From Thermoleophilaceae bacterium (GTDB lineage Bacteria > Actinomycetota > Thermoleophilia > Solirubrobacterales > Thermoleophilaceae), in NCBI GenBank assembly GCA_030447875.1, contig JAUJOA010000005.1:12667-76666 (forward strand): 64,000 bases of DNA, given 5' to 3'. Position 1 is the stretch's first letter, and each line of letters opens with the position of its first letter. The translations under genes and the position numbers were made by a program. The notes beneath the pieces are model-generated. The model saw nothing but the letters and a program-made list of their open reading frames with translations, made no database searches and was not told where the DNA came from. Shown in pieces: positions 38,813 to 55,322 of this stretch.

Positions 38813-39230
38813 CTACTGACCGCCTGCCCCTTCCGGCTCGCCCGGCACCTCGAGCTCTGGCGTCGGGTCGCTGTAGGTGCCCTCCATGACGAGCTGCCCG
38901 TCCAGGTAGCGCCCGCCGCCTGCCTCGCAGCCCTTCGGCTCGAAGCAGAAGAAGTACCCGGCGATCCTCCCGGAGCCACTGAGATCCGCATATCGCTCGG
39001 TCCCTCCGACGATCGTGAAAGTGCCTGCCCAGTGGGCGGTCTCGGCGGTGGCACGTTCGGGACGAGCGCGAAAGTCGACGAGTATGCGGGGCCTCTCCGT
39101 GTCCTTGACCGGCGCGTCCTCGGGAGTTGGACCCGGCGCGAGCTGGCAGACGGTGAACTCGACGTCGGGTCGAGCGGGAGCTCCAAGACATCATCTCCGA
39201 CGCCGCCGTCGGGTCCGAACGGGATCTTCA
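38813..39230 (-). pseudogene. Broken beta-barrel (allene-oxide-cyclase/DUF3224-like) gene
   Basis: On the minus strand after the PadR stop, a protein-like reading (PPLKIPFGPDGGVGDDVLEL) is in one frame. From about 39175 it continues in a second frame as PDVEFTVCQLAPGPTPED, HWAGTFTIVGGTERYADLSG, SGRIAGYFFCFEPKGCEAG and RYLDGQLVMEGTYSD, up to a TAG at 38813. The GTFTIVGGTxRYxxLxGSG pattern is typical of allene-oxide-cyclase-like or DUF3224 eight-stranded barrels. There is no ATG/GTG/TTG start that covers the domain, and a frameshift is needed, so this is called a pseudogene; a sequencing indel is the alternative. It would be the last gene of the protease-CooC-regulator operon. Confidence 0.5.
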
Positions 39231-39644
39231 GCGGAGGCGGCTCGCCGCGTCTTCGGCTCCAGCCCTAGACGAGCTCAACGCTGCCGAGCCGGCGCCAGCG
39301 AGGGTCACGAACTCCTCGTAGCGGCCGAGGAAGCCCTGGAGCGCCTCCGTCGTCGAAGCGAGCGCCTTCGCCTGAGCGTGGAGCTCCTCCATACCCGCGC
39401 GCGTGAGCTCGTAGATGCGCCGTTGCGGGCCTGCGTCCGACGGCTCCCACGCCGAGCGCACCAGCCGGTCCTCCTCGAGCGCACGGAGCGCCCGGTATAG
39501 ACCGCCCGGGTCAGTGCTCTGCACGCCGAACGGGCGCAAACGCTCGAGCAGCTCGTAGCCGTGCGCGGACTGCTCTCTCAGAAGCAGCAACAGGCACGAG
39601 CGAAGGAAGTTCCTTGGCAGCGCCGGTACCGGTTCAGTGGACAT
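39228..39644 (-). CDS. PadR-family transcriptional regulator
   Basis: A 138-residue PadR-type winged-helix repressor. The N-terminal DNA-binding domain reads LPRNFLRSCLLLLLREQSAH, GYELLERL, TDPGGLYRALRALEEDRLV and the wing RRIYELTRAGMEEL. A C-terminal helix (LHAQAKALASTTEALQGFL) is for dimerisation. It starts at ATG 39644 inside the 3' end of the preceding winged-helix gene (11-base overlap), so the two are co-expressed. Placement in the hydrogenase locus suggests it controls hydrogenase or maturation genes; the effector is unknown. Confidence 0.82.
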   Translation of the reverse strand: MSTEPVPALPRNFLRSCLLLLLREQSAHGYELLERLRPFGVQSTDPGGLYRALRALEEDRLVRSAWEPSDAGPQRRIYELTRAGMEELHAQAKALASTTEALQGFLGRYEEFVTLAGAGSAALSSSRAGAEDAASRLR

Positions 39645-39993
39645 GGGTCGTCCGTTCCTCCAGGCAGCGTGCCGCCTCCTCCGGAGAGTCATGGCACCAG
39701 CAGTCGTCGTCGCACTCGCCGTGGGCGGCGCGGGTCACGTCCGCGAACTCGTCGGCGAAGGTGCGCTTTCCAGCCTCCATGCCGGTTTGAGTGAGCCGAT
39801 AGCCGCCCCCGGACGGTTGCAGATAGCCGTCGGCCGCAAAGCGCTCCAAGTATGGCGCGAGCGTCGTCGCGGGGACCGCCAGGAACCGCGCCAGCTCCTG
39901 CGCCGAGGGCGCGTCGGCCAGGCCCTCTGAGCGCATCCAGTACATCGCCTGGAGCACTTCGTCGCGGATCCTCAGCGCTTCGAGCTCGTCCAC
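39634..39993 (-). CDS. Winged-helix regulator with Cys/His-rich C terminus
   Basis: A 119-residue protein. Residues 1-85 form a winged helix-turn-helix of the MarR/ArsR/Rrf2 kind (VLQAMYWMRSEGLADAPSAQ, ELARFLAVPATTLAPYLERF, then a wing LQPSGGGYRLTQTG). The C-terminal tail reads HGECDDDCWCHDSPEEAARC, with four Cys and two His in 20 residues, plus a final THVH. Such a cluster is likely to bind a metal or an Fe-S centre, so a metal- or redox-responsive regulator is inferred. It lies four bases downstream of the CooC-like ATPase gene and overlaps padR. Confidence 0.65.
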   Translation of the reverse strand: MDELEALRIRDEVLQAMYWMRSEGLADAPSAQELARFLAVPATTLAPYLERFAADGYLQPSGGGYRLTQTGMEAGKRTFADEFADVTRAAHGECDDDCWCHDSPEEAARCLEERTTHVH

Positions 39994-39997
39994 GTCT

Positions 39998-40762
39998 TCA
40001 GCGCCCCCCGTCCGCTGCGATCCCCTCGCCGAGCTCCGCTATGGCGGCGACGCCCGGCGCATCGGGGGCAAAGTCGAGCGGAGCGACCTGCCTCCGCTCG
40101 GCCTCCGGCAGGCGGTCGTCGTATGGGACGACGCCGGCGATCTCGAGCTCGTGCGAGGCGGCGAAGTCCCGCACGGCGGCGAGCTCGTGCTCGTCGCGGA
40201 TCTTGTTCGCCACCAGCGCGACGTGGTCGAGGCCGAGGTCCTTGCCCAGGGCGGCCATCCGCCGTCCGGTCTCGAGCGACTTGTAGTACGGCTCCACGAC
40301 GGTGAGCATCGCGTCGGCGTACCTCGCCGTGCCGCGCGAGAGATGCTCGGGCGAGGCTTCGGTGTCGAGCAGGCAGACATCCTCGGTTGCCTCCGAGGCG
40401 ACCTCGATCACGCTACGCACCGTAGCGTGCATGCCGCACAGTCACCCGGCCCCCGCGTGCTGCGGATGCGCCATCACGAGCAGCGTGACGTTGTCGGGAC
40501 CTTGGAGGGAGTGCGACCTGCAGACCTCCTCCAGGCTCTTGGTGAGCTCCACGCCGCCGTCGGTGCGCGTGAGGAGGTCGCGCGGCAGCGTCGGCACGTC
40601 GTTCATCCGCTCGGCGGGAATGCCGAGCGTGAGCGCCAGGTTCGGGTTCGAGTCGCCGTCGATCGCCAGCACCCGCCGGCCACCGCGGCCGAGCGTGCGG
40701 GCCATGGTGCCGGAGATCGAGGTCTTGCCCGACCCTCCCTTGCCTGCGACCACGAGCTTCAC
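39998..40762 (-). CDS. CooC-type nickel ATPase with in-frame TGA (candidate selenoprotein)
   Basis: Read through one in-frame TGA (40444-40442), this is a 254-residue MinD/ParA-class ATPase of the CooC type. The deviant Walker A GKGGSGKTS has the signature Lys8. Switch-like IDGDSNPNLALTLGI and the late LLDTEASPEHLSRGTA agree with CooC. The TGA is codon 107, followed by Leu and Cys109 (AG-TGA-LCGMHATVR). CooC proteins carry a CxC metal-binding motif at this place (112 and 114 in the Carboxydothermus protein, from memory), so the TGA stands for the first Cys and selenocysteine is the likely reading. Both halves are coding-like in the same frame and no indel is needed. GTG 40762 is the start; the gene is ten bases after the maturation protease gene. 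The alternative is a nonsense mutation or base-call error. Confidence 0.72.
40409..40429 (-). promoter_or_regulatory. Candidate bacterial SECIS hairpin
   Basis: On the coding strand, 12 bases after the in-frame TGA, CACGCTACG and CGTAGCGTG form a perfect 9-bp stem around a three-base loop GTG. The loop G is the 22nd base after the TGA, inside the range known for bacterial SECIS elements, which need a G (often GU) at the loop start for SelB. The stem uses the T-ending codons GCT and CGT, which are disfavoured in this G/C-ending genome. An operator for a regulator is the main alternative. Confidence 0.65.
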
Positions 40763-40772
40763 ACAGGCAAGG

Positions 40773-41246
40773 CTATCGCTCCGGCGTGCCCTCGGACGAC
40801 GTCTCCGCCAGCCACGCGGCAACCGTCGCACGCACCTGGGCCGCCGCAGCGTCCACCGCTCCCGCCACGGCGGGCGAGAGCTCGGTGCCCATTCCCTCCG
40901 CGTCCGCCGGCTGGCAGCCCACGATCACGACTCGCTCGGGGAGACAGCGGAGCTCGCGGGCCATCGACAGCACCCGTTCCGGAGTGGCCAGGTGCATGTC
41001 CGGGACGTTGTCGTAGGGGGCGACCTCGGGCTCGACCACGAAGACCGTGCCGGGCTTGGCGCCGCGGTCGACGGCGTCGACGACGACGAGTCCGTCGGAG
41101 CCGGCCATGAGCTCCTGGAGCAGCGCGATGCCGCCGATGCCCGACTCGACCAGATCGACGCCCGCCGGAAGCCGCTCCAGGCGCGCGGCCACCGCCGGCC
41201 CGAAGCCATCGTCCCGGCGCAGCACGTTGCCGACGCAGCCGACCAC
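40773..41246 (-). CDS. Hydrogenase maturation protease (M52, HyaD/HycI-like)
   Basis: A 157-residue nickel-dependent endopeptidase that trims the C-terminal extension of the hydrogenase large subunit after nickel insertion. The family pattern is complete: VVGCVGNVLRRDDGFG with Asp13, the second metal ligand in VVVDAVDRGAKPG (Asp57), and a His in DMHLATPERV (His85). The GTG at 41246 gives the normal N terminus. The gene is first in the operon with the CooC-like ATPase and is divergent from the NifU-domain gene 51 bases away. Because nickel binding triggers cleavage, its coupling to a nickel ATPase is sensible. Confidence 0.88.
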   Translation of the reverse strand: MVGCVGNVLRRDDGFGPAVAARLERLPAGVDLVESGIGGIALLQELMAGSDGLVVVDAVDRGAKPGTVFVVEPEVAPYDNVPDMHLATPERVLSMARELRCLPERVVIVGCQPADAEGMGTELSPAVAGAVDAAAAQVRATVAAWLAETSSEGTPER

Positions 41247-41297
41247 GATCCGCGCCGGGGAGCCCGCCCGCCGCGCCTGCGGCGTACCCTTGTTCTC

Positions 41298-41825
41298 GTG
41301 GGGACTCTCGATCAGTTGCTCCAGCGGCTCGAGGAGCTCATCGAGGAGATTGAAGCGCTCGACGACCCCGTGCGCGTCCCGGTGCTCGAGCTGCTCGACG
41401 GAATCGACGGCCTCCACCGCATGGCATTGGGCCGCCTGGGGGCGCTGCTCGGCCCCGCCGACGTCGCCCGTGTCCGCGCCGCCGATCCGGCCGTTGCCTG
41501 GCTCCTGGACGCCTACGGGGTCGGCGTCGACGAGCGGAGTGTCGCCGAGGCGGCACTCGAGCCGATCCGGCCTTACATCCATTCGCATGGTGGCGCCGTC
41601 GAGGTACTGGACGTCCGCGAGGGCGTGGTGCGCCTGCGGCTCACCGGCTCCTGCGCGGGCTGCACGGCGTCGTCGATCACGTTGCGAGAGGGCATCGAGG
41701 AGGGGCTGCGCGAGAACTTTCCCGGCTTCGCGGCGATCGAGGTCGAAGAGGGCGACGCGCCGGCGCATCCACCCCCGGGCCCGACGCTGCTTCAGATCGA
41801 GGACCTGCGCGCTCCAAGCAGCTGA
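41298..41825 (+). CDS. NifU C-terminal-domain protein of the hydrogenase locus
   Basis: A 175-residue protein with an N-terminal helical region (LDQLLQRLEELIEEIEALDD) and a C-terminal NifU/Nfu domain. That domain contains LEPIRPYIHSHGGAVEVLDV and the cluster-binding motif SCAGCTASSITL (CxxC). Nfu-type domains bind a [4Fe-4S] cluster between two monomers and pass it to targets, here plausibly the small subunit HhyS. The start is GTG 41298. A TPR protein gene follows after 26 bases and a ligase-like gene after that, so this is one operon. Confidence 0.85.
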   Translation: MGTLDQLLQRLEELIEEIEALDDPVRVPVLELLDGIDGLHRMALGRLGALLGPADVARVRAADPAVAWLLDAYGVGVDERSVAEAALEPIRPYIHSHGGAVEVLDVREGVVRLRLTGSCAGCTASSITLREGIEEGLRENFPGFAAIEVEEGDAPAHPPPGPTLLQIEDLRAPSS

Positions 41826-41851
41826 CATCGCCATGCTCGGCGAGTAAGCAC

Positions 41852-43090
41852 ATGGGTGCGGCGGATCACGTCCGTGAGGCGATCGGTGAGCTCGAGGAGC
41901 GTCGGCGTCGCCATCCGGTCGAGCGCTATCCCGTGCAACACGCCACCGCGAGCTTCCACCTTGGCGTGGCGCTCACCGACGCCGGACGCCTCGAGGAAGC
42001 CGAGGCCGCCCTCGAGGAGGCCGTGCGCCTGTTCGACCCCGACAAGCTTCCCCTCGAGCGGGCGAAGGCCGCCAACGCGCTCGGCGCAGCGCGGCGTCTC
42101 GGCGGCCGCCTCGACGCGGCGGCCGAGGCCTTGGCGCACGCGGCCGCCGCCTTCGAGGCGCGAGGCGCCCGCGCCGAGCAGGGGGCAGCCGAGTTCAACC
42201 TCGGGCTGGTCAGGCGCGAGGCCGGCGACACGAACGTCGCCATGGAGCACTTCGAGCGGGCGCGCGCGCTGTTCGCGGACGCGCGTGCCACAGCGCAGGT
42301 GGCTGCCGCCCGGCGTGAGCTAGGAGGGACGGCGCTGGCGGCGGGCGATCTCGAGCGCGCGGAGCCGGCGCTGCGCGAGGCGATGGAGCTCGCCGGCCAA
42401 GCCGGCGACGCGTCCGGCCGGGGCGCCGCCGCGAACGGGCTCGCACTCGTGCGCCTCGCCGCCGGCCGAATCGAGCACGCCATCGAAGCGCTCCACGAGG
42501 CGCTCGGCGCCTATCCGCGAACGGTCCGGGCGGAGAGCTACGCGATGGTGCAGGCAAACTTGGCGCTGGCGCACGAGCAGGCTGGTCATGCGGCCCGCGC
42601 GCGCCTGGCCGCCCGCCAGGCACTGGCGATCTCGGAGGCGGCGCAGCCGGTTCGAGCGCAGGCGGATGCGGTTCTCGGACGGCTCGGTGGCGGGCCGGGC
42701 GACCTCCTTGCGGTGCTCGACGATGAACCGGCCGAGCGCTGGCCCGCTTTCGTTCGCCAGGAGCTCGCCCGTTGGGTGGACCTCGAGCCGGCGCAGAGCC
42801 GGACCGAGGCGGGAGCATGGATCGACGGACAGCTGGCCCGGCCTGACCTCGCTGCCGAGCTGGCCGAGGCGTGGGTCGGAGTCCTGCTGGAGCTGCCGCC
42901 GACCGGTCTCGAGCGCGTTGTGACCGACACGGTCCTAGCCCTTGCACGGCGCGAGAGCGACGAGCGCGAGCAGTTCCGCTCGCAGGTGGCCATGGCACTC
43001 GCGCGGTTTCACGTGCCTCAGCTGATGCGCTTGAGGGACACCTTCAATCGGGTGGCCGCCGAGCTCGGCGAGGAGCCGTCGTGGAACTAG
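41852..43090 (+). CDS. TPR-repeat protein of the hydrogenase locus
   Basis: A 412-residue protein. Residues 15-265 are at least six tetratricopeptide repeats (ATASFHLGVALTDAGRLEEA, KAANALGAARRLGGRLDAAA, AEFNLGLVRREAGDTNVAME and so on). The C-terminal 150 residues are helical (LLAVLDDEPAERWPAFVRQE). TPR proteins scaffold protein complexes, so assembly of the hydrogenase is a reasonable inference. It has no signal peptide. It is translationally coupled to the next gene, whose GTG lies inside its last codons. Confidence 0.8.
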   Translation: MGAADHVREAIGELEERRRRHPVERYPVQHATASFHLGVALTDAGRLEEAEAALEEAVRLFDPDKLPLERAKAANALGAARRLGGRLDAAAEALAHAAAAFEARGARAEQGAAEFNLGLVRREAGDTNVAMEHFERARALFADARATAQVAAARRELGGTALAAGDLERAEPALREAMELAGQAGDASGRGAAANGLALVRLAAGRIEHAIEALHEALGAYPRTVRAESYAMVQANLALAHEQAGHAARARLAARQALAISEAAQPVRAQADAVLGRLGGGPGDLLAVLDDEPAERWPAFVRQELARWVDLEPAQSRTEAGAWIDGQLARPDLAAELAEAWVGVLLELPPTGLERVVTDTVLALARRESDEREQFRSQVAMALARFHVPQLMRLRDTFNRVAAELGEEPSWN

Positions 43091-43839
43091 GGGCCGACCT
43101 CTCGGCGGAGGCGGTCGCCGAGGCGCTTCCTGGTCGGCCGATCCGCGCCTACCGGGCCGTGCTCTCGACGGAGGCCGACGCGCTGGCCTGGGCGAGGGAA
43201 GGCGCCCCGAGCGGCGCGGTGGTCGTCGCCGCGTACCAGGCGGCGCCGAGGGGACGGGCGGGACTGCCCTGGGAGGTCTCGCCCGACGGGGCGATGGCCT
43301 TTTCGATCGTCCTCCGGCCCGGTCTGGCCGACGAGCGCGAAGGGTGGCTCTACACCCTCGCCGCCACTGGCCTCGCCGACGCTCTCGGCGACGACTGCAC
43401 GATCGAGTGGCCGGATGAGGTGGATCGCGGCGGCAGCCGGCTCGGTGCGGTCGGAGTGCAGAGCGACCTCGGCCCGGGCCGCGTGAACTGGGCGGTCGTG
43501 AGCGTCCTGGTGATCGATGCGGCGCCGCCGCGAGCCGCGCTCGTAGGCCGCGTCGTCAAGGCGATCGAGGCGCGCTGCCGGGCGCCGTCGGGCGACGTGC
43601 TCGCCGACTACATGGCGAGGTGCAGGACGCTCGGGCGCTCTCTGTGCGCGCGGCTCATCCCCCTGGGTCCGGGTGGACCGGAGGTGTCGGGGCGCGCGGT
43701 CGCCGCCCTGAAGGACGGCGCTCTCGTGTTCGAGACGGCCAAGGGCAACCGCGTGGCCGTGCGGCCTCAGAACCTGGGGCTGCTCGAGGAGCCGCCGTCC
43801 GACGACACGTCGCCCGAGATGCGGTCCTCGAGCGGCTGA
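43081..43839 (+). CDS. Biotin/lipoate-ligase-like protein, catalytic Lys missing
   Basis: A 252-residue protein with the fold pattern of BirA/LplA ligases. AAPRGRAGLPWEVSPDGAM corresponds to the GRGRxGRxWxSPxG loop, IEWPDEVDRGGSRLG to KWPNDIxxxxxKLxG, and SGRAVAALKDGALVFETAKG resembles the BirA C-terminal domain. The lysines that contact the acyl-AMP in true ligases are replaced (Glu in EWPDE, Arg in SRLG), so activity as a biotin ligase is doubtful. Its constant company here is the hydrogenase TPR and NifU proteins, which suggests a role in maturation or binding of a cofactor. The gene overlaps the convergent protease-like gene by 73 bases. Confidence 0.62.
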   Translation: MELGADLSAEAVAEALPGRPIRAYRAVLSTEADALAWAREGAPSGAVVVAAYQAAPRGRAGLPWEVSPDGAMAFSIVLRPGLADEREGWLYTLAATGLADALGDDCTIEWPDEVDRGGSRLGAVGVQSDLGPGRVNWAVVSVLVIDAAPPRAALVGRVVKAIEARCRAPSGDVLADYMARCRTLGRSLCARLIPLGPGGPEVSGRAVAALKDGALVFETAKGNRVAVRPQNLGLLEEPPSDDTSPEMRSSSG

Positions 43840-44567
43840 AGTCGGTCCAGTCCCTCGATCAGCGCCCACCACAGGCTCCAGTCGAGCGCGCCCATTCCGT
43901 GCGGCTCCTTGCCCGCGGCGATCTGCTCGCGCACCCGGTCACGTAGAGCGAAGGTGTCCCCCCACGCGCCCCGGCGGTCGACCTCGTCGAGCTCGTCGAG
44001 TAATTGGCGGAGCGCTGTCACGGCGCCCGACGGCGCCAGCCGGTCGCCGGTGAGGATCTCCCGCAGCTCGTCGGCGAGCGCCAGGACCGGCGCGCGGCAT
44101 ACCTCGGCGCGGACCAGCTCGAGCGCCTGCTCGAGCGCCGCCTCGACCTCCGGCGTAAGCGCCGTGGAGGGATCGGAGCGGACCGGCTCGATCTCGACGG
44201 CGACCGTTCGCTTCGGGAGCGCGCCGAACCCCGAGGCGACGTTCACCACGAGATCGATGTTGATGTAGCCGGTGATGGCCCCCGACACGGCGGTCTGAAC
44301 CTCCTCCGGGGTGTTCCCCGGATCTTCGACGCGCCGGCGCTCGACCGCTCCCGGCGGACGTCCGCGCTCAGCCGCGCCGACGAGCACCAGGGCCCCGGGG
44401 CGGAGGTCCTCGAGCCGCTGCATCACGGCGATCGCGCCGTAGGAGAGCTCCTCCACGAGCACGCCGTGACCGAGGTCCTCCGCCGCCAGCCGCTCGGCCG
44501 CGACCCTACCCACGTCGTGATCGCCCTGGTAGAGGTGCGCGACCCCCCCCACCAGGACGCCGGTCAC
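43767..44567 (-). CDS. Degenerate hydrogenase-protease-like protein with C-terminal extension
   Basis: A 266-residue protein starting 16 bases after hhyL. The N-terminal 150 residues keep the shape of an M52 maturation protease (VLVGGVAHLYQGDHDVGRVA, LVLVGAAERGRPPGAVE, VAVEIEPV). The Asp expected at the second metal site is lost (VGAAE instead of VVDA), and no His is found at the third. A C-terminal helical extension of about 110 residues follows. It may be a chaperone for HhyL rather than an active protease, since a complete protease is encoded 3 kb away. This is inferred from residues and position only. Confidence 0.68.
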   Translation of the reverse strand: MTGVLVGGVAHLYQGDHDVGRVAAERLAAEDLGHGVLVEELSYGAIAVMQRLEDLRPGALVLVGAAERGRPPGAVERRRVEDPGNTPEEVQTAVSGAITGYINIDLVVNVASGFGALPKRTVAVEIEPVRSDPSTALTPEVEAALEQALELVRAEVCRAPVLALADELREILTGDRLAPSGAVTALRQLLDELDEVDRRGAWGDTFALRDRVREQIAAGKEPHGMGALDWSLWWALIEGLDRLQPLEDRISGDVSSDGGSSSSPRF

Positions 44568-44583: not shown

Positions 44584-46488
44584 TCAGCCGTCGGCGCCGC
44601 AGGAGCAGGTGTTCACCTCGCGGACCACCGTGCCCCGGCCCGTGGAGGCGTGCGTCGTGCAGGGCATGCAGGGATCGAAGCTGCGGATCGTCCTCAGCAT
44701 GTCGACCGACGTGAACTGCGACGGGTCGGACATCTTCTCGAGGATCGGCGTGTTCATCACCGCCTCCTCGTACGGCCCCGGCTGATCCCACGGGTCGCGT
44801 GGCGAGGCGTTGATCGTCGACGGGGTACATATCTGGTAGTTCACGATCTTTCCCTGCTCGATGACGGTGTGGTGCGTCAGCCAGCCGCGACCGGCGCCCC
44901 AGAAGCCGACGCCGCGGCCCTCGGCCCGCTGGACGTGCGTGTCGAGCTCCGAGGCGGTGAGGCGTGCGACCTTCTTCTCGCCGCGCTCCATCAACTTGTA
45001 CGCGTCGAGCAGGTTCGCCAGCCCCACGAGCTGCGAGAAGACGTAGTGGTAGGCGCGCCCGCGATTGCGCTCGAACGCGTTCCAGACGTCCGGCACGTGC
45101 CACTCGACCTCCGTCTCGGGGGTGCGACCCTTGGGGATGCGGAGCTTCAGGCTATGGCCCGTCGCCTCGATGAAGTCGCTCTCGGGGAGCTTCTGCGCCT
45201 TGGCGGTGATGAAGAGCCGCGCGTAGGCACCCGCCTCGACGACCTGGCGGTCCCAGCGCGGCGTCGCCGCCCACGTGTACTTGTCCTTCCAGCTCTTGGG
45301 CTCCGGCTTGGGCAGCGTGCGCTTGTTCCACGGGTGGTACGGGCTGAGCGGATTGTCGAGCGGGTCCGTCCCGTAGCGCCCGCCGTCCCACTCGTCGTAG
45401 TAGGAGTGCTCCACGAACTCCTCGAATCCGATGTTGAGATCGGTGAGACGGGTGGTGACGAGCTCGCCGTCGATGATCGCCCCGGGCGTGGACCAGCGCC
45501 GCTCGCCCCACTCGTTGCAGTTCTCGTATGTGGCGTCATAGGCCTCGTAGTGGTCCCAGTAGCCGGTGTCGATCATGTTGACCGGCCGCGCCCCGACCTC
45601 CTTGAACCGCTCGTCGGCCTCGTAGAAGAACTCGGGGATGTCGTCCCACACGGCCATCATGCGCTGCGCGTAGTCGAAGATGCTTCCGAGCCGCGCGTGG
45701 TACTCGTTGAGCGTCTGAAGCGTGATGGTCGACGTCACGCCCCCGGGGACGATCGCCTGCGGGTGGGGGTACTTGCCCTGGAGCAGCACGAACATCTCGC
45801 GCGAGAGCCGCGTGAACTGAAGACCCTCACGGTAGAGCTCACCGGTCAGCGGCGTCAGCGCGGTCATGATCTCGGCCATCGTCTTGAAGCCGTGGTGCTT
45901 CTCGCCGGGGCAGCGCCAGCTCTGCGCCTTCGGCCACAGCTCCGGATTCGTCGCCTTGACGACCGGCTCCGAGTAGTCCGGGCCGGCGAGGAGGTAGAGG
46001 TGAAGCGGGTTGTCGTAGCCCATCTCCGCCGTCTCGGCGAGGTTCCGCGCAACGGTCCCCATCGGCGGCGGCTCGAGCCCCAGGGCCATCTCGGTCGCGT
46101 ACGCCGAGCAATGCGCGTGGACGCCGCCGCACACGCCGCAGGCGCGGGAGGAGATGTAGGTCGCGTCGCGTGGATCGCGGCCCATGAGGATCACCTCGTA
46201 ACCGCGGAACAGCGGCGCCTGCGAGTGCGCCTGCAAGTACCGTCCGTCCTGCAGGTCCGCGGTGACGTGGAGGGCCATCGCGCCGGCGATGCGCGTGACC
46301 GGGTCCATGTTGAGGTCCTTGATGTGCCCGTTGCGCTTCACGAGCTGCTCGATCTGCGCGGTGCGCTCCGCCTCGGTCATGTTGACCTCGGGCCGTGCGG
46401 TGGTGACCGAGTAGGGATCGGGGATGCCGCCGCGAAGCCGCGCGTTGCCGGAGTCGTCGAACTCGACGGGAAGCGTCTTGAAGCACAT
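44584..46488 (-). CDS. hhyL: [NiFe]-hydrogenase large subunit, actinobacterial high-affinity (group 1h-like)
   Basis: A 634-residue large subunit that oxidises H2 at a Ni-Fe(CN)2CO centre. The N-terminal L1 motif is RACGVCGGVH (Cys117, Cys120) and the C-terminal L2 motif is DPCMPCTTH (Cys607, Cys610, His613). All four nickel ligands are Cys, so this is not a NiFeSe enzyme. A 21-residue extension after His613 (ending NTCSCGADG) is the substrate of the maturation protease. The sequence DPVTRIAGAMALH, with Ala in place of the usual Glu after RI, and the length fit the actinobacterial high-affinity group that scavenges atmospheric H2. It starts three bases after hhyS. The subgroup call is from memory of the family and not from a tree. 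Confidence 0.9.
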   Translation of the reverse strand: MCFKTLPVEFDDSGNARLRGGIPDPYSVTTARPEVNMTEAERTAQIEQLVKRNGHIKDLNMDPVTRIAGAMALHVTADLQDGRYLQAHSQAPLFRGYEVILMGRDPRDATYISSRACGVCGGVHAHCSAYATEMALGLEPPPMGTVARNLAETAEMGYDNPLHLYLLAGPDYSEPVVKATNPELWPKAQSWRCPGEKHHGFKTMAEIMTALTPLTGELYREGLQFTRLSREMFVLLQGKYPHPQAIVPGGVTSTITLQTLNEYHARLGSIFDYAQRMMAVWDDIPEFFYEADERFKEVGARPVNMIDTGYWDHYEAYDATYENCNEWGERRWSTPGAIIDGELVTTRLTDLNIGFEEFVEHSYYDEWDGGRYGTDPLDNPLSPYHPWNKRTLPKPEPKSWKDKYTWAATPRWDRQVVEAGAYARLFITAKAQKLPESDFIEATGHSLKLRIPKGRTPETEVEWHVPDVWNAFERNRGRAYHYVFSQLVGLANLLDAYKLMERGEKKVARLTASELDTHVQRAEGRGVGFWGAGRGWLTHHTVIEQGKIVNYQICTPSTINASPRDPWDQPGPYEEAVMNTPILEKMSDPSQFTSVDMLRTIRSFDPCMPCTTHASTGRGTVVREVNTCSCGADG

Positions 46489-46490
46489 GG

Positions 46491-47912
46491 CTAGCCGGGC
46501 TCCTGGGAGCTCACTTCGCGCTCCTCCGGCAGCTCGCCGCCGCGTGGAAGCTGCGGCTCCAGCTCGGGGTCGCGCGCCTGGGTCCACTCAGTGCGCTTGC
46601 CCCAGGTCTCGTTGTCCTGCCTTCCGGTGTCGGTCGTGCGCCGCAGCTTGTCGTAGAGCTTGTGGCCCGCCCCGCGTAGCGCCCCGGGCTCGGACTTCTC
46701 GCTCGCCCACCCGGAGGGCACGTCGCCGTGGATGTCCCAGCGCACCTCCCGGTTGAGGTGCTCGTTCGAGTACATCCTCAGCGGCTTGATCACGCTTCCC
46801 AGCAAGCGCGACGCCGTTGTGGACACCCTCGAGCCGGGCGGCGTCTTGTGGAAGGGCGTGAACTTGTCGGGGAAGCCCGGCATCGTGCAGCCGATGCAGG
46901 CGCCGCCCACGTTCATGCACCCCCCGACATGGTTGATGGCGCCGCGCGATGTGATGTTGCAGTTGACGACAGGGCCCCAGCACCCGATCTCGACCAGGCA
47001 CTCGGGGTCGCCGAACTCCTCGGCGTAGGCGCCCTCCTCGTAATAGGCGCCGCGCACGCAGTGGCGGTGCACCGTCTCACCGAACAGCCACGCCGGACGG
47101 CCGAGCTCGTCGAACTCCGGCAGCGGACCGAAGCCCTGAAGGAAGTAGAGAATTGCGGCGACGGTCTCGTTGAAGTTGTCGCCGATCGGCGGACAGCCAG
47201 GGACGTTGACGACAGGCACGCCGAATGTGCTCCGGTAGTCCTTGCCGAGGAAGTCCATCAGGCTCATCGCGCCGGTAGGGTTGCCCTGGGCGGACGGGAT
47301 CCCGCCCCAGGTGGCGCACGTGCCGATGGCGATCGACGCCGCGGCGCCCGGTGCGAGGCGCGCGACCCACTCGTTCGCCGTCACGGCCCGCTCCACGCCG
47401 TCCTTGCCCCACGGCTCCTCGCCGTTGCTCGCCCAGAAGCCCCCGGTCTCCATCGCCTTGTTCTCGTCGGTGATGGAGCCCTCGAGGATGATGACGTAGG
47501 GCGCGTCGAGCTCGCCCTTGATCGCGCGCTCGTGGGCCCGCAGAAAGTTCGGTCCGCCCTCGAGGTCCAGCACCGGGTGATGGAGCACGATCCGCGGCAG
47601 CCCCGGGTGGGCGCCCATCAGGAGGTCCTCCAGCGACGGCTTCTCGGCACCGGTCACCGCGACGCTGCAGCCGTCGCAGCTCATGCCGGCGAACCAGAAG
47701 GCGTGCACCTTCTCGAGCGGTCCGAGGCGACTGACCGGACCGGCCTTGGCCACGGGCTCGAGGAGCTGCTCCATGTCCACTCGGGCGGGACTGCCGAAGT
47801 CGCCGATGTGCTCGTGGTCGTGCCAGCGGTCCACCGGCCCGAGTACGTCGAGGAACTGCTCGGCCAGGGAGCGGTCCAGCTTTCCGTCGTCGCCGTTGGT
47901 CCTCGAAGCCAT
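46491..47912 (-). CDS. hhyS: [NiFe]-hydrogenase small subunit, actinobacterial high-affinity (group 1h-like)
   Basis: A 473-residue small subunit carrying three Fe-S clusters. The proximal cluster site is GMSCDGCSVAVTG (Cys79, Asp80, Cys82) with Cys in IGTCATWGG and VPGCPPIGD. An Asp next to the first Cys is typical of the oxygen-tolerant group, where Asp is reported as a ligand. Medial and distal clusters use ETVHRHC, GDPEC, EIGCWG, VNCN and CMNVGGACIGCTMPGF. No Tat signal is present at the N terminus. The C-terminal about 115 residues are basic and then acidic and Pro-rich, longer than usual. The ATG at 47912 has GGGGGAGG upstream. Confidence 0.9.
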   Translation of the reverse strand: MASRTNGDDGKLDRSLAEQFLDVLGPVDRWHDHEHIGDFGSPARVDMEQLLEPVAKAGPVSRLGPLEKVHAFWFAGMSCDGCSVAVTGAEKPSLEDLLMGAHPGLPRIVLHHPVLDLEGGPNFLRAHERAIKGELDAPYVIILEGSITDENKAMETGGFWASNGEEPWGKDGVERAVTANEWVARLAPGAAASIAIGTCATWGGIPSAQGNPTGAMSLMDFLGKDYRSTFGVPVVNVPGCPPIGDNFNETVAAILYFLQGFGPLPEFDELGRPAWLFGETVHRHCVRGAYYEEGAYAEEFGDPECLVEIGCWGPVVNCNITSRGAINHVGGCMNVGGACIGCTMPGFPDKFTPFHKTPPGSRVSTTASRLLGSVIKPLRMYSNEHLNREVRWDIHGDVPSGWASEKSEPGALRGAGHKLYDKLRRTTDTGRQDNETWGKRTEWTQARDPELEPQLPRGGELPEEREVSSQEPG

Positions 47913-49194: not shown

Positions 49195-51375
49195 ATGGGC
49201 GCAGCGGCGCACGCGTCGACCGAGCGCCGGCGCTTCGAGGTCTCGGGAGTCGTACAGGGCGTCGGGTTCCGGCCGTTCGTGTACCGCGTGGCACAGCGTG
49301 AGCGCGTTGGCGGCTTCGTGCTGAACGACGGACAGGGCGTACTCATCGAGGCGGAGGGGCGCTCGGAGGCGCTCGAGGCATTCGGCGTTGCCCTCTCCAC
49401 GGAGGCGCCGCCGCTCGCGCGGGTCGAGTCGCTGACGGTGCGGCGCCTGACGCCGCGCGGCGAGACGGGGTTCGCGGTGGCCGGAAGCCGACCACCTGAA
49501 GCCGTCTCCGGGGCGCCGGCACTCGTACCGCCGGATACCGCCACCTGCGACGACTGCCTGCGCGAGCTGCTCGACCCCGCGGATCGCCGCTATCGCTATC
49601 CGTTCATCAACTGCACGCAATGCGGGCCGCGCTTCACGCTCGTACGAGCGGTTCCCTACGACCGCGCCAATACGACGATGGACGGGTTCTCCATGTGCCA
49701 TGACTGCCGTCGTGAGTACGAGGACCCGACGGACCGCCGCTTTCACGCCGAGCCGATTGCCTGCCCCGACTGCGGGCCCACGTTGTCGATGCCGCTGGAC
49801 GAGGCCATCGGACTGCTCGAGGAGGGCGCGATCCTGGCGGTCAAGGGGCTCGGCGGCTATCACCTGGCCAGCGATGCGGCGAACGAGAGTACGGTCGCTC
49901 GTCTGCGCGCGCGCAAGCAGCGCGAGGAGAAGCCGTTCGCCCTGATGGCACCGCAGGCGGAGCGGCTGGCCGAGCTCACGTCCTCGGAGATCGATCTGCT
50001 CGGCTCTCCCGAGCGCCCGATCGTGCTGGTGCGCAGGCGCGATGAGGCAGCCGTCGCGCCGTCGGTGTCGCCCGGCGGTCCATGGCTCGGCGTCATGCTG
50101 CCGTACACGCCGCTCCACCACCTGTTGGTCGCCGACTTCAGCGGGCCGCTCGTGATGACGAGCGGCAACCGCTCGGACGAGCCGATCGCCTTCGACGACG
50201 CCGACGCCCGCCGTCGGCTCGGCGACGTCGCCGACGCGTTCCTCGGGCACAGCCGGCCGATCCACCGGCGCTGCGAGGACTCGGTGGTGCGATCGGCGTT
50301 TCCTATCCGCCGCTCCCGGGGCTTTGCTCCGGCGGCGCTTGGGCTGCCCGTCACCGCACGCCGGCCACTGGTGGCTGCCGGGGCGGAGCTGAAGAGCACC
50401 TTCTGCGTGGTGCGCGACGGCGACGCATTCCTGTCTCCGCACCTGGGCGACCTCGACTGCGAGCCGGCGTACAGCGCGTTTCGAGCCGATCTGGGGCTCT
50501 ACCTCGACATGCTCGGCGTGGAGCCGGAGGTCATAGCCCACGACCTCCATCCCGATTACCTGGCCACGAGATGGGCGCAGGGACAGCACGTCGAGCTGAT
50601 CGGCGTGCAGCATCACCACGCGCACGCCGCGGCTTGCCTCGCCGAGCACGGCGAGGCGGGGCCGGCGCTGGCGCTGGTGTTCGACGGCACCGGCTACGGG
50701 ACCGACGGCACGCTCTGGGGCGGCGAGCTGCTGCGCTGCGACCTCGAGTCGTTCGAACGGCTCGGGCACCTCGAACCGGTCCCGCTGCCGGGCGGCCAGG
50801 CGGCGATTCGGGAGCCGTGGCGAACCGCGGCCGCCTACCTGGAGCGGGCCGGGCGGCCCGTGCCCTTCGAGGCCTGGCCGAAGGTACGTCAGAGCCTGAA
50901 GGTCAACGCGCCGCTTTCCTCCGGGATGGGGCGCCTGTTCGATGCGGTGGCGGCCGTCCTCGGCGTACGCGAGCGCGTGACCTACGAGGGCCAGGCGGCG
51001 ATCGAGCTCGAGCACTTGGCGTGTGGGGTCCAGTCCGAGCCGTACGCCTGCCGCATCACGGACGGTGTGATCGCGGGATCCGACCTGGTGCGCGCGGTCC
51101 ACGACGACTCGGCTGCCGGCCGGCCGCCTGCGGAGGTGGCGGCCGCTTTCCACGAGGGCGTGGCGCTGGTGAGCGCAGAGGCGGTGGCCGCCACGGGCGA
51201 TCCGGGAACCGTCGCGCTCTCGGGCGGAAGCTTTCAGAATCTGCGACTGCTGGAGTCGACACGGCGACGGCTCGAGCAACTCGGCTTTCGGGTCCTGACC
51301 CACCGTCGAGTGCCGCCGAACGACGGCGGGATCAGCTACGGCCAGGCCGCCATCGCGGCGAGGAGGATGATCTAG
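49195..51375 (+). CDS. hypF: Carbamoyltransferase HypF
   Basis: A 726-residue HypF. It makes the thiocarbamate on HypE that becomes the CN ligands of the Ni-Fe centre, using carbamoyl phosphate and ATP. Domain order is normal: acylphosphatase (VVQGVGFRPFVYRVA), four Cys-x2-Cys zinc motifs (CDDCLRELL, NCTQCGPRF, MCHDCRREY, ACPDCGP), YrdC-like (VKGLGGYHLASDA, KPFALM) and the Kae1-like carbamoyltransferase (HHHAHAAACLAEHG, VFDGTGYGTDGTLWGGEL). All key motifs are intact. The ATG starts two bases after the fourth small membrane protein gene. Downstream lie hypC, the SIS-HypC-SIS gene, hypD and hypE. Confidence 0.95.
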   Translation: MGAAAHASTERRRFEVSGVVQGVGFRPFVYRVAQRERVGGFVLNDGQGVLIEAEGRSEALEAFGVALSTEAPPLARVESLTVRRLTPRGETGFAVAGSRPPEAVSGAPALVPPDTATCDDCLRELLDPADRRYRYPFINCTQCGPRFTLVRAVPYDRANTTMDGFSMCHDCRREYEDPTDRRFHAEPIACPDCGPTLSMPLDEAIGLLEEGAILAVKGLGGYHLASDAANESTVARLRARKQREEKPFALMAPQAERLAELTSSEIDLLGSPERPIVLVRRRDEAAVAPSVSPGGPWLGVMLPYTPLHHLLVADFSGPLVMTSGNRSDEPIAFDDADARRRLGDVADAFLGHSRPIHRRCEDSVVRSAFPIRRSRGFAPAALGLPVTARRPLVAAGAELKSTFCVVRDGDAFLSPHLGDLDCEPAYSAFRADLGLYLDMLGVEPEVIAHDLHPDYLATRWAQGQHVELIGVQHHHAHAAACLAEHGEAGPALALVFDGTGYGTDGTLWGGELLRCDLESFERLGHLEPVPLPGGQAAIREPWRTAAAYLERAGRPVPFEAWPKVRQSLKVNAPLSSGMGRLFDAVAAVLGVRERVTYEGQAAIELEHLACGVQSEPYACRITDGVIAGSDLVRAVHDDSAAGRPPAEVAAAFHEGVALVSAEAVAATGDPGTVALSGGSFQNLRLLESTRRRLEQLGFRVLTHRRVPPNDGGISYGQAAIAARRMI

Positions 51376-51377
51376 CC

Positions 51378-51656
51378 ATGTGCCTTGGAATCCCGGGACA
51401 GGTCGTCGAGTTCGTCGATCCCGAGCACCACATCGCGAAGGCGGACGTGTCGGGCGTCAGACGCAACGTGAACGTAGGTCTGCTCAGCGAGGGGTCCGAG
51501 GCGGTCGACGTGGGCGACTGGGTGCTGATCCACGTCGGCTTTGCGATGTCGAAGATCGACGAACAGGAGGCGACCGCCACGCGCCAGTTCCTCGAGACGC
51601 TCGGCGAGCCCTACGAGGAGGAGCTCGCGGAGCTGAAGGGCAGCCAGATCGAGTGA
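51378..51656 (+). CDS. hypC: Hydrogenase assembly chaperone HypC
   Basis: A 92-residue HypC chaperone. The essential Cys2 is in MCLGIPGQVVEF, and the C-terminal half (VGDWVLIHVGFAMSKIDEQE) matches the OB-like fold. It carries the Fe(CN)2CO fragment between HypD and the apo large subunit. The ATG follows the hypF stop by two bases, and its own stop overlaps the next gene (GTGA). A second HypC-like domain is embedded in that next gene. Confidence 0.94.
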   Translation: MCLGIPGQVVEFVDPEHHIAKADVSGVRRNVNVGLLSEGSEAVDVGDWVLIHVGFAMSKIDEQEATATRQFLETLGEPYEEELAELKGSQIE

Positions 51657-53041
51657 TCCGCGGAGCCCCGCCGCTCACCGATCGCCTGCGCCCGCTGATC
51701 GCCGAGCGGAACCGCGTGCTGTCGGCGTTCCTCGAGGCGGAGCAGTACCGGATCGCGCGCGCCTCCCACGATATGGCGCGCGCCTTTGCGCGCGGCGGCG
51801 TCCTGACTGCGTTCGGATACGGCGCCGCCGCGACCGACGCAGCGCACGTCGCGGTGGAGTTCATGCATCCCGTGATCGTCGGCACGCGTGCACGGCCCGC
51901 CGTGGCGCCGACGAACGACCCGACTGGCGCCACCGAGCTGGCGCTGGTCGCGCGCGGCGACGACATCGCCCTCGGTATCTCCCACGACCATGACGACGGC
52001 AGGGTGCGGGAGTTCATCGCCCGCGGCGCGGCGCAAGGCCTCCTGACGATCGTCATGACTGGTGGGGACACACGAATCGGGGCCGACTACTCGTTCGCCG
52101 TGCCGAGCGACGACCCCGAGGTGGTCCAGGAGGTGCAGGAGACCGCCTACCACGTGCTCTGGGAGCTCGTGCACGTGTTCTTCGAGCATCCCGGGCTCCT
52201 GGCCGACGCCTGCGTCACCTGCGGCGACGTGGCCGTTGAGGCCCGGGTGCGGTCGGTCACAGACGGCGCGGCGGTGATCGAGACGGGCGACGTCCGCGAG
52301 GAGGTGGCCGTCGATCTCGTCGACGGCGTCGAGCCCGGTGACCTCGTGCTGTGCCACGCCGGCGTGGTGCTGGAGAAGCTTCCGACAGGGCCGGCGGCGG
52401 CGACCGAGGTCGAGGACTCCGGCACCGCCGACCCGACCGGCTTCCTCTACCCCTTCCTCGAGTCGGAGGAGAAGGACGTCGACGCAGTCCTCGCCGACGC
52501 GCGCAGCTCGACGCTTCGGAAGGGCGCCGACGTGATCGCGCTGCGCGAGGCGATCGACGTCGGCGCGATCGAGGATTGCGGCCGCGCGATCAGCGAGCGG
52601 CTCGAGCGCGGAGGCCGGCTGATTGCCTTCGGCAACGGCGGCTCGTCCACCGACGCGCAGGACGTGGCCGGCAACTGCCTGGCGCGCGGTTGGTCCGCGA
52701 CGGCGCTCACCAACGACGTCGCCACGGTCACCGCCGTCGGCAACGACGTGGGCTACGACAACGTGTTCGCACGCCAGCTCATCCCGCTCGCCCGCTCGGA
52801 GGACGTCGCGCTCGCCATCTCGACGAGCGGCTCCTCGCCGAACATCCTCGTGGCGCTCGAGGAGGCGCGCCGGCGCGGGATGCTCACATGCGGGATAACG
52901 GGCTACGACGGCGGTCGCCTGGCCACGCTCGACTGGCTCGACCACCTCTTCGTTGTGCGCAGCGACTACATCCCGCGCCTCCAGGAGGCGCATGCCACCA
53001 TCTACCACCTGCTGCTTGAAGCGATCGGAGAAAGGCCATGA
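51653..53041 (+). CDS. SIS-HypC-SIS fusion protein of the hyp operon
   Basis: A 462-residue fusion. Residues 1-190 form a SIS domain of the sedoheptulose-phosphate isomerase kind (RGGVLTAFGYGAAATDAAHV, LALVARGDDIALGISHDHDD). Residues 190-250 resemble HypC (DACVTCGDVAVEARVRSV, VDLVDGVEPGDLVLCHAGVV, LEKL). Residues 290-460 form a second, GmhA-like SIS domain (RLIAFGNGGSSTDAQDVAGN, DVALAISTSGSSPNILVA). Ser and Gly residues of the phosphosugar-binding loop are intact in the second SIS. Its role in maturation is not established. It sits between hypC and hypD with four-base overlaps, so it is made with the maturation machinery and probably works with HypCD. Confidence 0.8.
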   Translation: MIRGAPPLTDRLRPLIAERNRVLSAFLEAEQYRIARASHDMARAFARGGVLTAFGYGAAATDAAHVAVEFMHPVIVGTRARPAVAPTNDPTGATELALVARGDDIALGISHDHDDGRVREFIARGAAQGLLTIVMTGGDTRIGADYSFAVPSDDPEVVQEVQETAYHVLWELVHVFFEHPGLLADACVTCGDVAVEARVRSVTDGAAVIETGDVREEVAVDLVDGVEPGDLVLCHAGVVLEKLPTGPAAATEVEDSGTADPTGFLYPFLESEEKDVDAVLADARSSTLRKGADVIALREAIDVGAIEDCGRAISERLERGGRLIAFGNGGSSTDAQDVAGNCLARGWSATALTNDVATVTAVGNDVGYDNVFARQLIPLARSEDVALAISTSGSSPNILVALEEARRRGMLTCGITGYDGGRLATLDWLDHLFVVRSDYIPRLQEAHATIYHLLLEAIGERP

Positions 53042-54201
53042 GGTTCGTCGATGAGTTCCGATCCGGCGATGTCGCCCGTCAGATCGCCGAGCGGATCGCC
53101 GGCCTCGTCGAGCCCGGACGCCACTACAAGGTCATGGAGGTCTGCGGCGGTCACACGCACGCCATCTATAAGCACGGGGTAGAGGACCTGTTGCCGCCCG
53201 AGATCGAGCTGGTGCACGGGCCCGGCTGTCCCGTGTGCGTGATCCCGATGGGCCGCCAGGACGACGCGATCGCCATCGCCGAGCGACCGGAGGTCATCTT
53301 CACCACCTTCGGCGACATGGTGCGCGTGCCGGCCTCGCACGGCTCGCTGCTCGACGCGAAGGCACGCGGCGCGGATGTACGCATGGTCTACTCGCCGCTC
53401 GACGCGCTCAAGATCGCGCGTGAGAACCCGGACCGCCAGGTCGTGTTCTTCGCGATCGGCTTCGAGACCACTACGCCCTCCACCGCGCTCACGCTCCTGC
53501 GCGCCCGCGCCGAGGGCATCCGCAACTTCTCGCTGTTCGCGAACCACGTCACGATCATCCCGGCGATCCGGGCGATCCTCGACTCGCCGGACCTGCGCCT
53601 TGACGGCTTCATCGGGCCGGGCCACGTGTCGACCGTGATCGGGCTGCGCCCCTACCGCTTCATCGCACGCGACTACGACAAGCCGGTGGCCGTCTCGGGC
53701 TTCGAGCCGCTCGACGTGCTCCAGGGCGTGTACATGGTGATGCGCCAGCTCGCCTCCGGGCGCAACGAGGTGGAGAACCAGTACACGCGAGTCGTGCGGG
53801 AGGAGGGCAACCCGCGAGCGCTGCGGGCTATCGCCGAGACGATGGAGCTGCGGACGTCCTTCGAGTGGCGCGGCCTCGGGTTCATCTCCCAGAGCGCGCT
53901 GAAGCTGCGCGACGAGTTCGCCGACTGGGACGCGGAGGTGCGCTACGAGCTACCCGGGGTCCGCGTGGCCGATCCCAAGGCCTGCCAGTGCGGCGAGGTC
54001 TTGAAGGGCGTGATCAAGCCGTGGGAGTGCAAGGTCTTCGGCACCGCCTGCACGCCGGACCGGCCGATCGGCACCTGCATGGTGTCGAGCGAGGGCGCCT
54101 GCGCCGCGTACTACAACTACGGCCGCTTCGCCCGCCGGCGTGGGCGCGAGGCGGAGATCGCAGGGCTGGAGCCGGTCGTACGCGAGCCCGCGAGCGCCTG
54201 A
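53038..54201 (+). CDS. hypD: Hydrogenase maturation factor HypD
   Basis: A 387-residue HypD, the scaffold on which the Fe(CN)2CO unit is built with HypC. The motifs VMEVCGGHTHAIYKHG, HGPGCPVCVIP and AIGFETTTPSTA are present, as is the C-terminal [4Fe-4S] region (CQCGEVLKGVIKPWECKVFG, ACTPDRPIGTCMVSSEGACA). All Cys expected for the cluster and thiol relay are present. The ATG overlaps the preceding stop by four bases and its TGA shares one base with the hypE ATG. Confidence 0.95.
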   Translation: MRFVDEFRSGDVARQIAERIAGLVEPGRHYKVMEVCGGHTHAIYKHGVEDLLPPEIELVHGPGCPVCVIPMGRQDDAIAIAERPEVIFTTFGDMVRVPASHGSLLDAKARGADVRMVYSPLDALKIARENPDRQVVFFAIGFETTTPSTALTLLRARAEGIRNFSLFANHVTIIPAIRAILDSPDLRLDGFIGPGHVSTVIGLRPYRFIARDYDKPVAVSGFEPLDVLQGVYMVMRQLASGRNEVENQYTRVVREEGNPRALRAIAETMELRTSFEWRGLGFISQSALKLRDEFADWDAEVRYELPGVRVADPKACQCGEVLKGVIKPWECKVFGTACTPDRPIGTCMVSSEGACAAYYNYGRFARRRGREAEIAGLEPVVREPASA

Positions 54202-55322
54202 TGGAGCCGCGCCAGCCCGCGCCCGCCGTGGCTCCGTCCCAGCGCTCGGAGGGAGAGGTCCTTGACGCGATCGAGCGTCGCCGCCGCCGGCCGCACGTGA
54301 AGCTGATGGACAAGCAGATCACGCTGGCTCACGGGGCGGGCGGAAAGTCGTCGCACACGCTCACCCAGACCGTCTTCCTCAAGGAGCTCCGGAACCCGCT
54401 GCTCGAGCCGCTGGGCGACAGTGCGCTTCTCCAGCCGAACGGCGGAGGGGGACCGCGCCTTGCTTTCTCCACCGACTCCTTCGTGGTCAAGCCACTTTTC
54501 TTCCCCGGCGGGGACATCGGCGAGCTCGCCGTGAACGGAACGATCAACGACCTGGCCATGGCCGGGGGCCGACCGCTGGCGCTGTCGGCGGCGTTCATCC
54601 TCGAGGAGGGGCTTGCGACGGATGACCTGAGCCGCATCGCTGCCTCGATGGGAGCGGCAGCCGAGCGAGCGGGCGTGCCGGTGGCCACGGGAGACACGAA
54701 GGTCGTCGAGCGCGGCAAGGCCGACGGGCTTTACATCTCCACCGCCGGGGTGGCGTCCGTCAACCGCGGCTTCGAGCTGTCGCCTGCAGCCATCCGAGCC
54801 GGCGACCGCGTGCTTGTCTCGGGCACGATCGGCGACCACGGGATGGCGATCATGATCGCGCGCGGTGAGCTCGAGCTCGAGGTTGACCTCGAGAGCGACA
54901 CCGCGCCGCTTCACGAGCTGGTCGCGGCGCTGCTCGACGCAACCGGCGAGGTTCGCTGCCTGCGCGACCCCACGCGCGGGGGGGTGGCCACCGTGCTCAA
55001 CGAGCTGGCGCTCACGACCGAGGTCGGGATCGTGCTCGACGAGGCCGCGCTTCCAGTCCGCCCGGAGGTCAGCGGGGCGTGCGAGATCCTCGGCATCGAT
55101 CCGCTCTACGTCGCAAACGAAGGCAAGCTGGTCGCGGTCGTCGCCCCTCACGCAAGCGACGCCGCGCTTGCCGCCCTGCGCTCGCATCCGCTCGGCCGCG
55201 AAGCGGCGGTCGTGGCCGAGGTACGGCCTGATCCGCCCGGCATGGTCCTGCTCGACACGGCCTTCGGCGGCAGCCGTGTGGTCGACATGCTGGCCGGGGA
55301 CCCGCTGCCGCGCATCTGCTGA
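54201..55322 (+). CDS. hypE: Carbamoyl dehydratase HypE
   Basis: A 373-residue HypE, which dehydrates the C-terminal thiocarboxamide to thiocyanate, the donor of CN. The nucleotide-binding AIR-synthase-like domain shows LAHGAGGKSSHTLTQ, AFSTDSFVVKPLFFPGGD, GTINDLAMAGGRPLALSAAF and the ATP loop RDPTRGGVATVLNELA. The protein ends in PRIC, with the C-terminal Cys that accepts the carbamoyl group. It has an N-terminal extension of about 35 residues rich in Arg before the conserved domain. HypE is related to SelD, but the PRIC end and context make this HypE, so it does not supply selenophosphate synthetase. Confidence 0.95.
   Translation: MEPRQPAPAVAPSQRSEGEVLDAIERRRRRPHVKLMDKQITLAHGAGGKSSHTLTQTVFLKELRNPLLEPLGDSALLQPNGGGGPRLAFSTDSFVVKPLFFPGGDIGELAVNGTINDLAMAGGRPLALSAAFILEEGLATDDLSRIAASMGAAAERAGVPVATGDTKVVERGKADGLYISTAGVASVNRGFELSPAAIRAGDRVLVSGTIGDHGMAIMIARGELELEVDLESDTAPLHELVAALLDATGEVRCLRDPTRGGVATVLNELALTTEVGIVLDEAALPVRPEVSGACEILGIDPLYVANEGKLVAVVAPHASDAALAALRSHPLGREAAVVAEVRPDPPGMVLLDTAFGGSRVVDMLAGDPLPRIC

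Follow-up and report, generated by a model that had tools for sequence, protein, structure and literature searches.

The window analysed here, a stretch of 64,000 nucleotides from a Thermoleophilaceae bacterium, carries a hydrogenase gene cluster of a soil bacterium in which the gene at 39998-40762 (minus strand) contains an internal in-frame TGA. This gene, termed Sec-CooC for the selenocysteine (Sec, or U in motifs) that we propose for the TGA, starts with GTG, runs for 254 codons, ends in a TGA at 39998-40000, and encodes a CooC/MinD-type ATPase of 254 residues whose domain was assigned by Pfam to the CbiA/MinD/ParA family. The sole internal TGA, codon 107 (40444-40442), is followed by CTG TGC (Leu-Cys109), giving U-L-C in place of C-x-C. 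The Walker A motif GKGGSGKTS and the downstream DTEASPEHLSRG share one frame across the TGA; an earlier note on this DNA had described both sides of codon 107 as CooC-like and in the same frame, which the open reading frame (ORF) and the homologues confirmed. Standard gene calling would break such genes into two parts at this codon.

The best solved relative of the encoded protein was CooC1 of Carboxydothermus (3kje, E 6.2e-26), followed by a MinD (E 1.1e-9), and phmmer aligned codon 107-Leu-Cys109 to Cys112-Tyr-Cys114 of CooC1, residue numbers that the earlier note had given correctly, judging from the part of PMC6006190 available to us. The C-x-C position is kept with its first cysteine replaced by the TGA, and the protein has the CooC motif only if selenocysteine is counted as cysteine. 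An AlphaFold2 (AF2) model had a mean predicted local distance difference test (pLDDT) score of 91, and its best Foldseek match in the PDB was again 3kje (template modelling score 0.75, root mean square deviation 4.8).

Of 249 genomes of the class Thermoleophilia, 49 gave a Sec-CooC match at E<=1e-20 in a read-through search. The best match was at least 64% identical in 17 genomes (including that of the window), with one TGA in 12 and none in five, and at most 42% identical in the remaining 32. In the 11 other TGA-bearing genomes of the class the best match was 69-77% identical and carried its one TGA in the same column wherever aligned. In an alignment of 22 rows (A1), in which GKGGSGKT was invariant, 15 rows had TGA at one column and the other seven had cysteine there; all aligned homologues therefore had either TGA or cysteine at the position where the earlier note had looked for a conserved cysteine. 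Counting that of the window, the TGA was found in 24 distinct nucleotide contexts. Among named genomes, where the best 80 of 122 matches were kept (77 loci), TGA carriers were mostly bins named as Gaiellaceae, Solirubrobacteraceae, Thermoleophilaceae, Candidatus Siliceabacter, Gaiellasilicea maunaloa or plain Actinomycetota; one carrier (L101) bears the name Chloroflexi, and one locus (L054/L116), about 58% identical, reads U-L-G. The TGA-interrupted gene is real and beyond chance, recurring as it does across genomes of the class.

Divergence between homologues was mostly synonymous both before and after codon 107. The proportions of nonsynonymous and synonymous differences (pN/pS) for the homologue L089 were 0.147/0.424 upstream of the TGA and 0.138/0.464 downstream, and when each half of the window gene was compared with 23 of the 29 other rows in a second alignment (A2), the ratio ranged from about 0.24 to 0.61 over the 46 comparisons. 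Since pN/pS was alike on the two sides, the part after the TGA is under purifying selection as protein. In a tree of 135 ATPases built by a quick method, the Sec label changed at least nine times, three of these changes being forced by strongly supported branches. One homologue (L035:1303-2037, apparently the same gene as L114) is a cysteine form (TGT) that retains CGT AGC GTG, half of the hairpin of the Sec genes described below; selA and selB were not found in its genome, and it looks like a change from selenocysteine to cysteine.

The TGA of the window gene is followed after 12 nt by a hairpin (40409-40429, minus strand) with a perfect 9-bp stem and a 3-nt loop, GTG, located 21 nt past the TGA. 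These features fit the model of the bacterial selenocysteine insertion sequence (bSECIS) given in the portion of PMC13188914 available to us, namely a small loop with G in its first two positions, 16-37 nt after the TGA. All seven core stem pairs were present in 22 of the 24 distinct TGA contexts; L050 retained six, and L054 lacked this stem (L054/L116 can form another hairpin instead, as can L189/L190). Codon choice within the core followed the TGA closely. The core alanine codon was GCT in 23 of 24 TGA genes and in none of the 17 cysteine homologues more than 50% identical that served for comparison, five of which read C-x-G and 13 of which have alanine at that place (Fisher p 1.2e-10, relatedness ignored), GCT being generally rare (12 of 329 alanine codons in five genes of the window). 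Likewise, the core arginine codon was CGT in all 23 TGA genes compared and in two of the 16 cysteine homologues with arginine. Synonymous recodings made with the codon usage of the window reached the observed stem length in at most 5% of cases for 17 of the 24 TGA genes and for none of the 17 cysteine genes, counts that are not independent because the genes are related. Minimum free energy z-scores as a test for bSECIS were weak in most genes (-3.2 in the window), for which reason we relied on the stem and codon evidence. An Rfam scan of 39000-42000 returned two matches, both under their gathering scores.

The genome of the window (G000; 38 contigs, 77% complete) contains selA adjoining selB, and on another contig a selD (L014, G000:C19:1575-2315) that is broken into pieces over two frames, apparently by a frameshift in the draft, with a cysteine at the position that we take to be the active site. 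Across the 12 Sec-CooC genomes, selA was found in 10 and selB scored over its cut-off in nine. A tRNA-Sec match of at least 55 bits was obtained in seven of the other 11, and ARAGORN called tRNA-SeC(tca) in all five Sec-CooC genomes tested (11 loci submitted, all called tRNA-SeC). Two of the five genomes with close cysteine forms (G077 and G244) yielded no selA, no selB over the cut-off and no strong tRNA-Sec match, and the other three have all of these; cysteine forms thus occur both with and without a selenocysteine system.

Sec-CooC lies among genes for a [NiFe]-hydrogenase and its maturation. Next to it on the minus strand are a hydrogenase maturation protease of the HycI/HyaD type (40773-41300, start approximate) and, on the other side, a 119-residue protein (39634-39993) with a conserved H-G-E-C-x3-C-W-C...C pattern and no Pfam or NCBIfam match. 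H91, C94, C98 and C100 of this small protein were present in all 30 aligned rows and C110 in 29 (window included, matches below 90 residues dropped), and it may act as a metal-binding partner or as a stand-in for HypA. On the plus strand follow a NifU-domain protein (41403-41825, start approximate), a TPR protein conserved in the locus (41852-43090) and a conserved locus protein without a Pfam match (43063-43836, ends approximate), to which a biotin-ligase-like label presumably applies. A second maturation protease-like protein (43767-44567), with an NCBIfam match just below the cut-off and no Pfam match, precedes the hydrogenase large subunit (44584-46485, start approximate) and small subunit (46491-47912), all three on the minus strand. 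Read from the small subunit, the order is small subunit, large subunit, protease-like protein, 43063-43836 protein, TPR, NifU, protease, Sec-CooC and the small Cys/His-rich protein, and this gene order recurs in several relatives. On the other side of the hydrogenase subunits lie, on the plus strand, HypF (49195-51375), HypC (51378-51656), a HypC-like domain joined to SIS domains (51602-53041, start approximate), HypD (53038-54201) and HypE (54261-55322, start approximate). The combination of HypC-like and SIS domains within the hyp genes looked unusual and was also matched in relatives. The best PDB match of the large subunit was HofG (5aa5_C, E 1.7e-140; next match 6.7e-56), which we take to be a hydrogenase of the actinobacterial type (group 1h), hence the term group-1h-like. 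Of the 23 named Sec-CooC loci, 15 have a gene for a hydrogenase subunit, a protease or a Hyp protein in the available flank.

In nine of the 12 Sec-CooC genomes HypA was unmatched at E<=0.001 and no HypB score passed the cut-off, five of these nine giving weak HypB matches of 20-39 bits, the strongest in G124. The catalytic subunit of the nickel carbon monoxide dehydrogenase (Ni-CODH; CO_DH_cata) was detected in none of the 12 Sec-CooC genomes and in none of the five close cysteine-form genomes, and was present in G004 and G012, the two genomes tested that have only a distant CooC, of about 37% identity. Service to Ni-CODH, with its catalytic subunit missing from all 17 close genomes, was rejected, and for the same reason the protein is termed here a CooC-like relative and not the CooC of a CODH. 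The neighbourhood, the frequent lack of HypA and HypB and the lack of Ni-CODH lead us to propose that the ATPase inserts nickel into the hydrogenase, in many cases as a substitute for HypA/HypB. The gene at 39998-40762 thus probably encodes a selenoprotein, a CooC-type ATPase with this function.

A mechanism can be outlined on this basis. The TGA at 40444-40442 would be read as selenocysteine by the SelA/SelB system of the genome, directed by the hairpin at 40429-40409; this insertion at codon 107 is predicted from sequence. CooC-type ATPases are characterised by nickel binding at the interface of a dimer and by slow ATP hydrolysis. The ATPase described here would probably dimerise and hold a metal, most likely nickel, between two U-L-C loops, with two selenium and two sulfur atoms as ligands, and its release, coupled to nucleotide binding, would place the metal in the large subunit of the group-1h-like [NiFe]-hydrogenase encoded nearby. 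Sec-CooC would thereby do for this hydrogenase the task of HypA/HypB elsewhere, HypCDEF would still build Fe(CN)2CO and the proteases would finish the large subunit. Selenocysteine may be favoured as the selenolate binds a soft metal tightly and recovers from oxidation, the cells being presumed aerobic. We infer nickel binding by selenocysteine and loading of the [NiFe] centre from the genomics, and the identity of the metal, the dimer site, the delivery target and the reason for selenocysteine are proposed on the same footing. Selenocysteine is known as a catalytic residue. If the proposal is true, it would here occupy the metal-carrying site of a maturation ATPase, selenium aiding metal loading and not catalysis; selenium supply would be tied to hydrogen oxidation in Actinomycetota, and the loading of [NiFe]-hydrogenases where HypA/HypB are missing would have a possible answer.

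Several observations weigh against this proposal. The earlier note had called for a search of the genome for selenocysteine machinery; selA, selB and selD were found, and a search for tRNA-Sec (selC) in this genome (77% complete) gave none (150 of 250 candidates scored; all seven tRNA-Sec candidates called as other tRNAs by ARAGORN), though it is present in relatives. The tRNA-Sec family score discriminates poorly: some match exceeded the 47-bit cut-off in 29 of 30 genomes, and because of this matches of about 47-53 bits were discounted by judgement. Two of the 12 Sec-CooC genomes (G179 and G237, in 290 and 390 contigs) had neither selA nor selB over the thresholds, and G079, with selA, had no selB over the cut-off. 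An equally long stem arose in more than 5% of synonymous recodings of seven of the 24 TGA genes, and no covariation was detected in the Sec-CooC hairpin, whose stem hardly varies, so that covariation neither supports nor opposes it. Eight of the 23 named Sec-CooC loci had no matched hydrogenase subunit, protease or hyp gene; one of these (L095) has the NifU gene of the locus, the rest show no more than additional CooC-like genes or the small Cys/His-rich protein, and several end at contig ends. Three Sec-CooC genomes (G107, G231 and G191) had a strong HypB together with a HypA match, over the HypA cut-off only in G231, and four of the five close cysteine-form genomes had HypB over the cut-off and a HypA match; replacement of HypA/HypB is therefore not universal. 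Finally, the CooC of Rhodospirillum rubrum is reported as inactive in the maturation of its hydrogenase, in the part of PMC6006190 available to us.

Among the other explanations, the one that deserves most attention accepts the selenoprotein and has the U-x-C pair serve redox chemistry, another metal or an Fe-S cluster, for example in a NifH-like ATP-driven reductase acting in hydrogenase assembly. Foldseek also returned nitrogenase Fe proteins and chains of a methylthio-alkane reductase complex, and Sec-CooC gave weak Fer4_NifH and CfbC matches, yet the best match of the window protein both in sequence and by Foldseek was CooC1. The Fe-S cysteines of NifH are separate from the C-x-C site, and it is at the latter that selenocysteine would stand. 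The site of CooC1 takes zinc as well as nickel (PMC6006190, available part) and a redox function is presumed for many selenoproteins (PMC13188914, available part), both in keeping with such a role; the frequent absence of hypA and hypB from Sec-CooC genomes argues for nickel insertion instead, and we regard a redox or other-metal role as unlikely.

The remaining explanations deny selenocysteine altogether. Were the TGA a plain stop, the gene would be a pseudogene or would encode an N-terminal piece of 106 residues, perhaps with a separate start at a later ATG; such an ATG does open a 144-residue ORF after the TGA (39998-40432), and the search for tRNA-Sec in G000 found none. In 12 genomes, nevertheless, the best match has no internal stop but this TGA, which occurs in 24 distinct contexts (the L118/L119 match being also divided between frames), purifying selection extends over both sides, the cysteine homologues are in one piece and the hairpin codons accompany the TGA, which makes a plain stop highly improbable. 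It is equally hard to credit a reassigned codon or generic readthrough that puts another amino acid at the TGA: nothing was found in its favour, TGA terminates both Sec-CooC itself and the large-subunit gene, all seven TGA-less homologues of A1 have cysteine in the column and selA and selB are present. A sequencing or assembly error for TGC or TGT might be suspected in a draft genome with a selD broken up over two frames. Many separately named assemblies have this TGA too, which makes a base-call error very unlikely, and they have it together with hairpin codons that are absent from the cysteine homologues, leaving this explanation with next to no probability.

A second, paralogous ATPase family, absent from the window, was found in other genomes of Thermoleophilia, Acidimicrobiales and other Actinomycetota families, with U-x-U-C-G or C-x-U-C-G at the motif, the U-x-U form having two TGA six bases apart. 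Its 18 distinct genes comprised nine UPU, two UTU, six CPU and one CLU, and in every one of the 18 genes GAGCAGTTGCTC occupies the same position, with the loop 25 nt after the first motif codon and 19 nt after the second; the count required this string, and the full list has no [U/C]-x-U-C-G row without GAGCAGTTGCTC. In contrast, none of 18 C-x-C-C-G homologues has GAGCAGTTGCTC, and two of them have GAGCAGCTGCTC. The stem covaries in this family: pair 22-39 is CG in 10 genes, GC in six and unpaired in two, and pair 24-37 is CG in 10, UA in five and UG in three. Overall, 98.4% of cells pair vs 90.7% in shuffles, and the covariation score was 0.247 vs 0.113 in shuffles, none of 500 being as high (a slide of +1 scored 0.147; relatedness not removed). 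Two further covariation measures, counting change on both sides of a pair and further pair types, were not above shuffles. In a draw of 396 genomes from the phylum, 13 had second-family matches at E<=1e-40, and at least one TGA was present in 13 of the 17 matches. The family was seen near an ATPase without C-x-C in hydrogenase loci at L055:16639-18092, L195-L199 and L202-L206. Such an ATPase lay within 1 kb of the second-family gene in all 10 larger regions read, with clear hyp or hydrogenase-locus genes in nine and only a weak HypC match in the tenth (L198). The AF2 model for this second family (pLDDT 89) was MinD-like, CooC1 ranking 12th among its structure matches.

We hold it about evenly balanced whether, more broadly, many Actinomycetota mature [NiFe]-hydrogenases without HypA/HypB by means of a set of CooC/MinD-type ATPases with a nickel site built with selenocysteine, U-L-C together with U-x-U-C or C-x-U-C, the latter travelling with a partner that lacks C-x-C and with which it may form a heterodimer, and with two neighbouring UGA decoded under one hairpin. 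If true, this would be a selenium-based metal-insertion pathway, and the U-x-U-C family offers a natural test of the way in which the ribosome reads two UGA six bases apart with one hairpin. A third group with U-L-C was also seen (L189:2238-1501 and L190:1501-2241), about 44-46% identical to the window protein, in hydrogenase loci and with a different hairpin, as was a divergent ATPase (L192:2193-1501) that has G-U-G-G at the motif and whose hairpin core is related.

Neither Sec-CooC nor the U-x-U-C family was found described in the open-licence literature, as far as its text was accessible, or in the family models searched. The 119 families and subfamilies in the table of PMC13188914 (2026), in its available part, include no CooC/MinD-type ATPase and no U-x-U-C motif. 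By title and abstract, the open-licence PMC literature, whose scope leaves out most subscription papers, held nothing relevant on a CooC or metallochaperone with selenocysteine, and no paper in it joined Thermoleophilia, hydrogenase and selenocysteine; the Sec-ATPases scanned had only below-cut-off NCBIfam matches. A CooC-like ATPase is a known kind of protein, and these searches suggest that its being a selenoprotein is new within the literature and models covered.

Sec-CooC shares with CooC1 (3kje-3kji) the MinD-type fold, the deviant Walker A motif GKGG and the position of the C-x-C motif, but unlike the CooC1 of CO dehydrogenase it has TGA, as putative selenocysteine, for the first cysteine, its gene lies in a hydrogenase locus and no Ni-CODH was found in the 17 close genomes searched. 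For the CobW-related selenoprotein (NF041053) we presume the P-loop class. Like other predicted metal-handling selenoproteins, that protein combines metal handling with a predicted selenocysteine (PMC13188914, Table 1, available part), and it differs from Sec-CooC in subfamily and in its motif, UxxC. CooC1 binds zinc and nickel at one site (PMC6006190, available part). With the HypA/HypB system Sec-CooC would have in common the presumed task of nickel insertion and the company of HypCDEF; HypB, however, is a G3E GTPase (PMC9164220, available part), whereas the protein here is a MinD-type ATPase with a predicted selenocysteine. The [NiFeSe]-hydrogenases likewise use selenocysteine in hydrogen metabolism, there as a nickel ligand (PMC13188914, available part), but carry it in the large subunit, whereas here the large subunit reads DPCMPC with cysteine and the selenocysteine would reside in the maturation ATPase.
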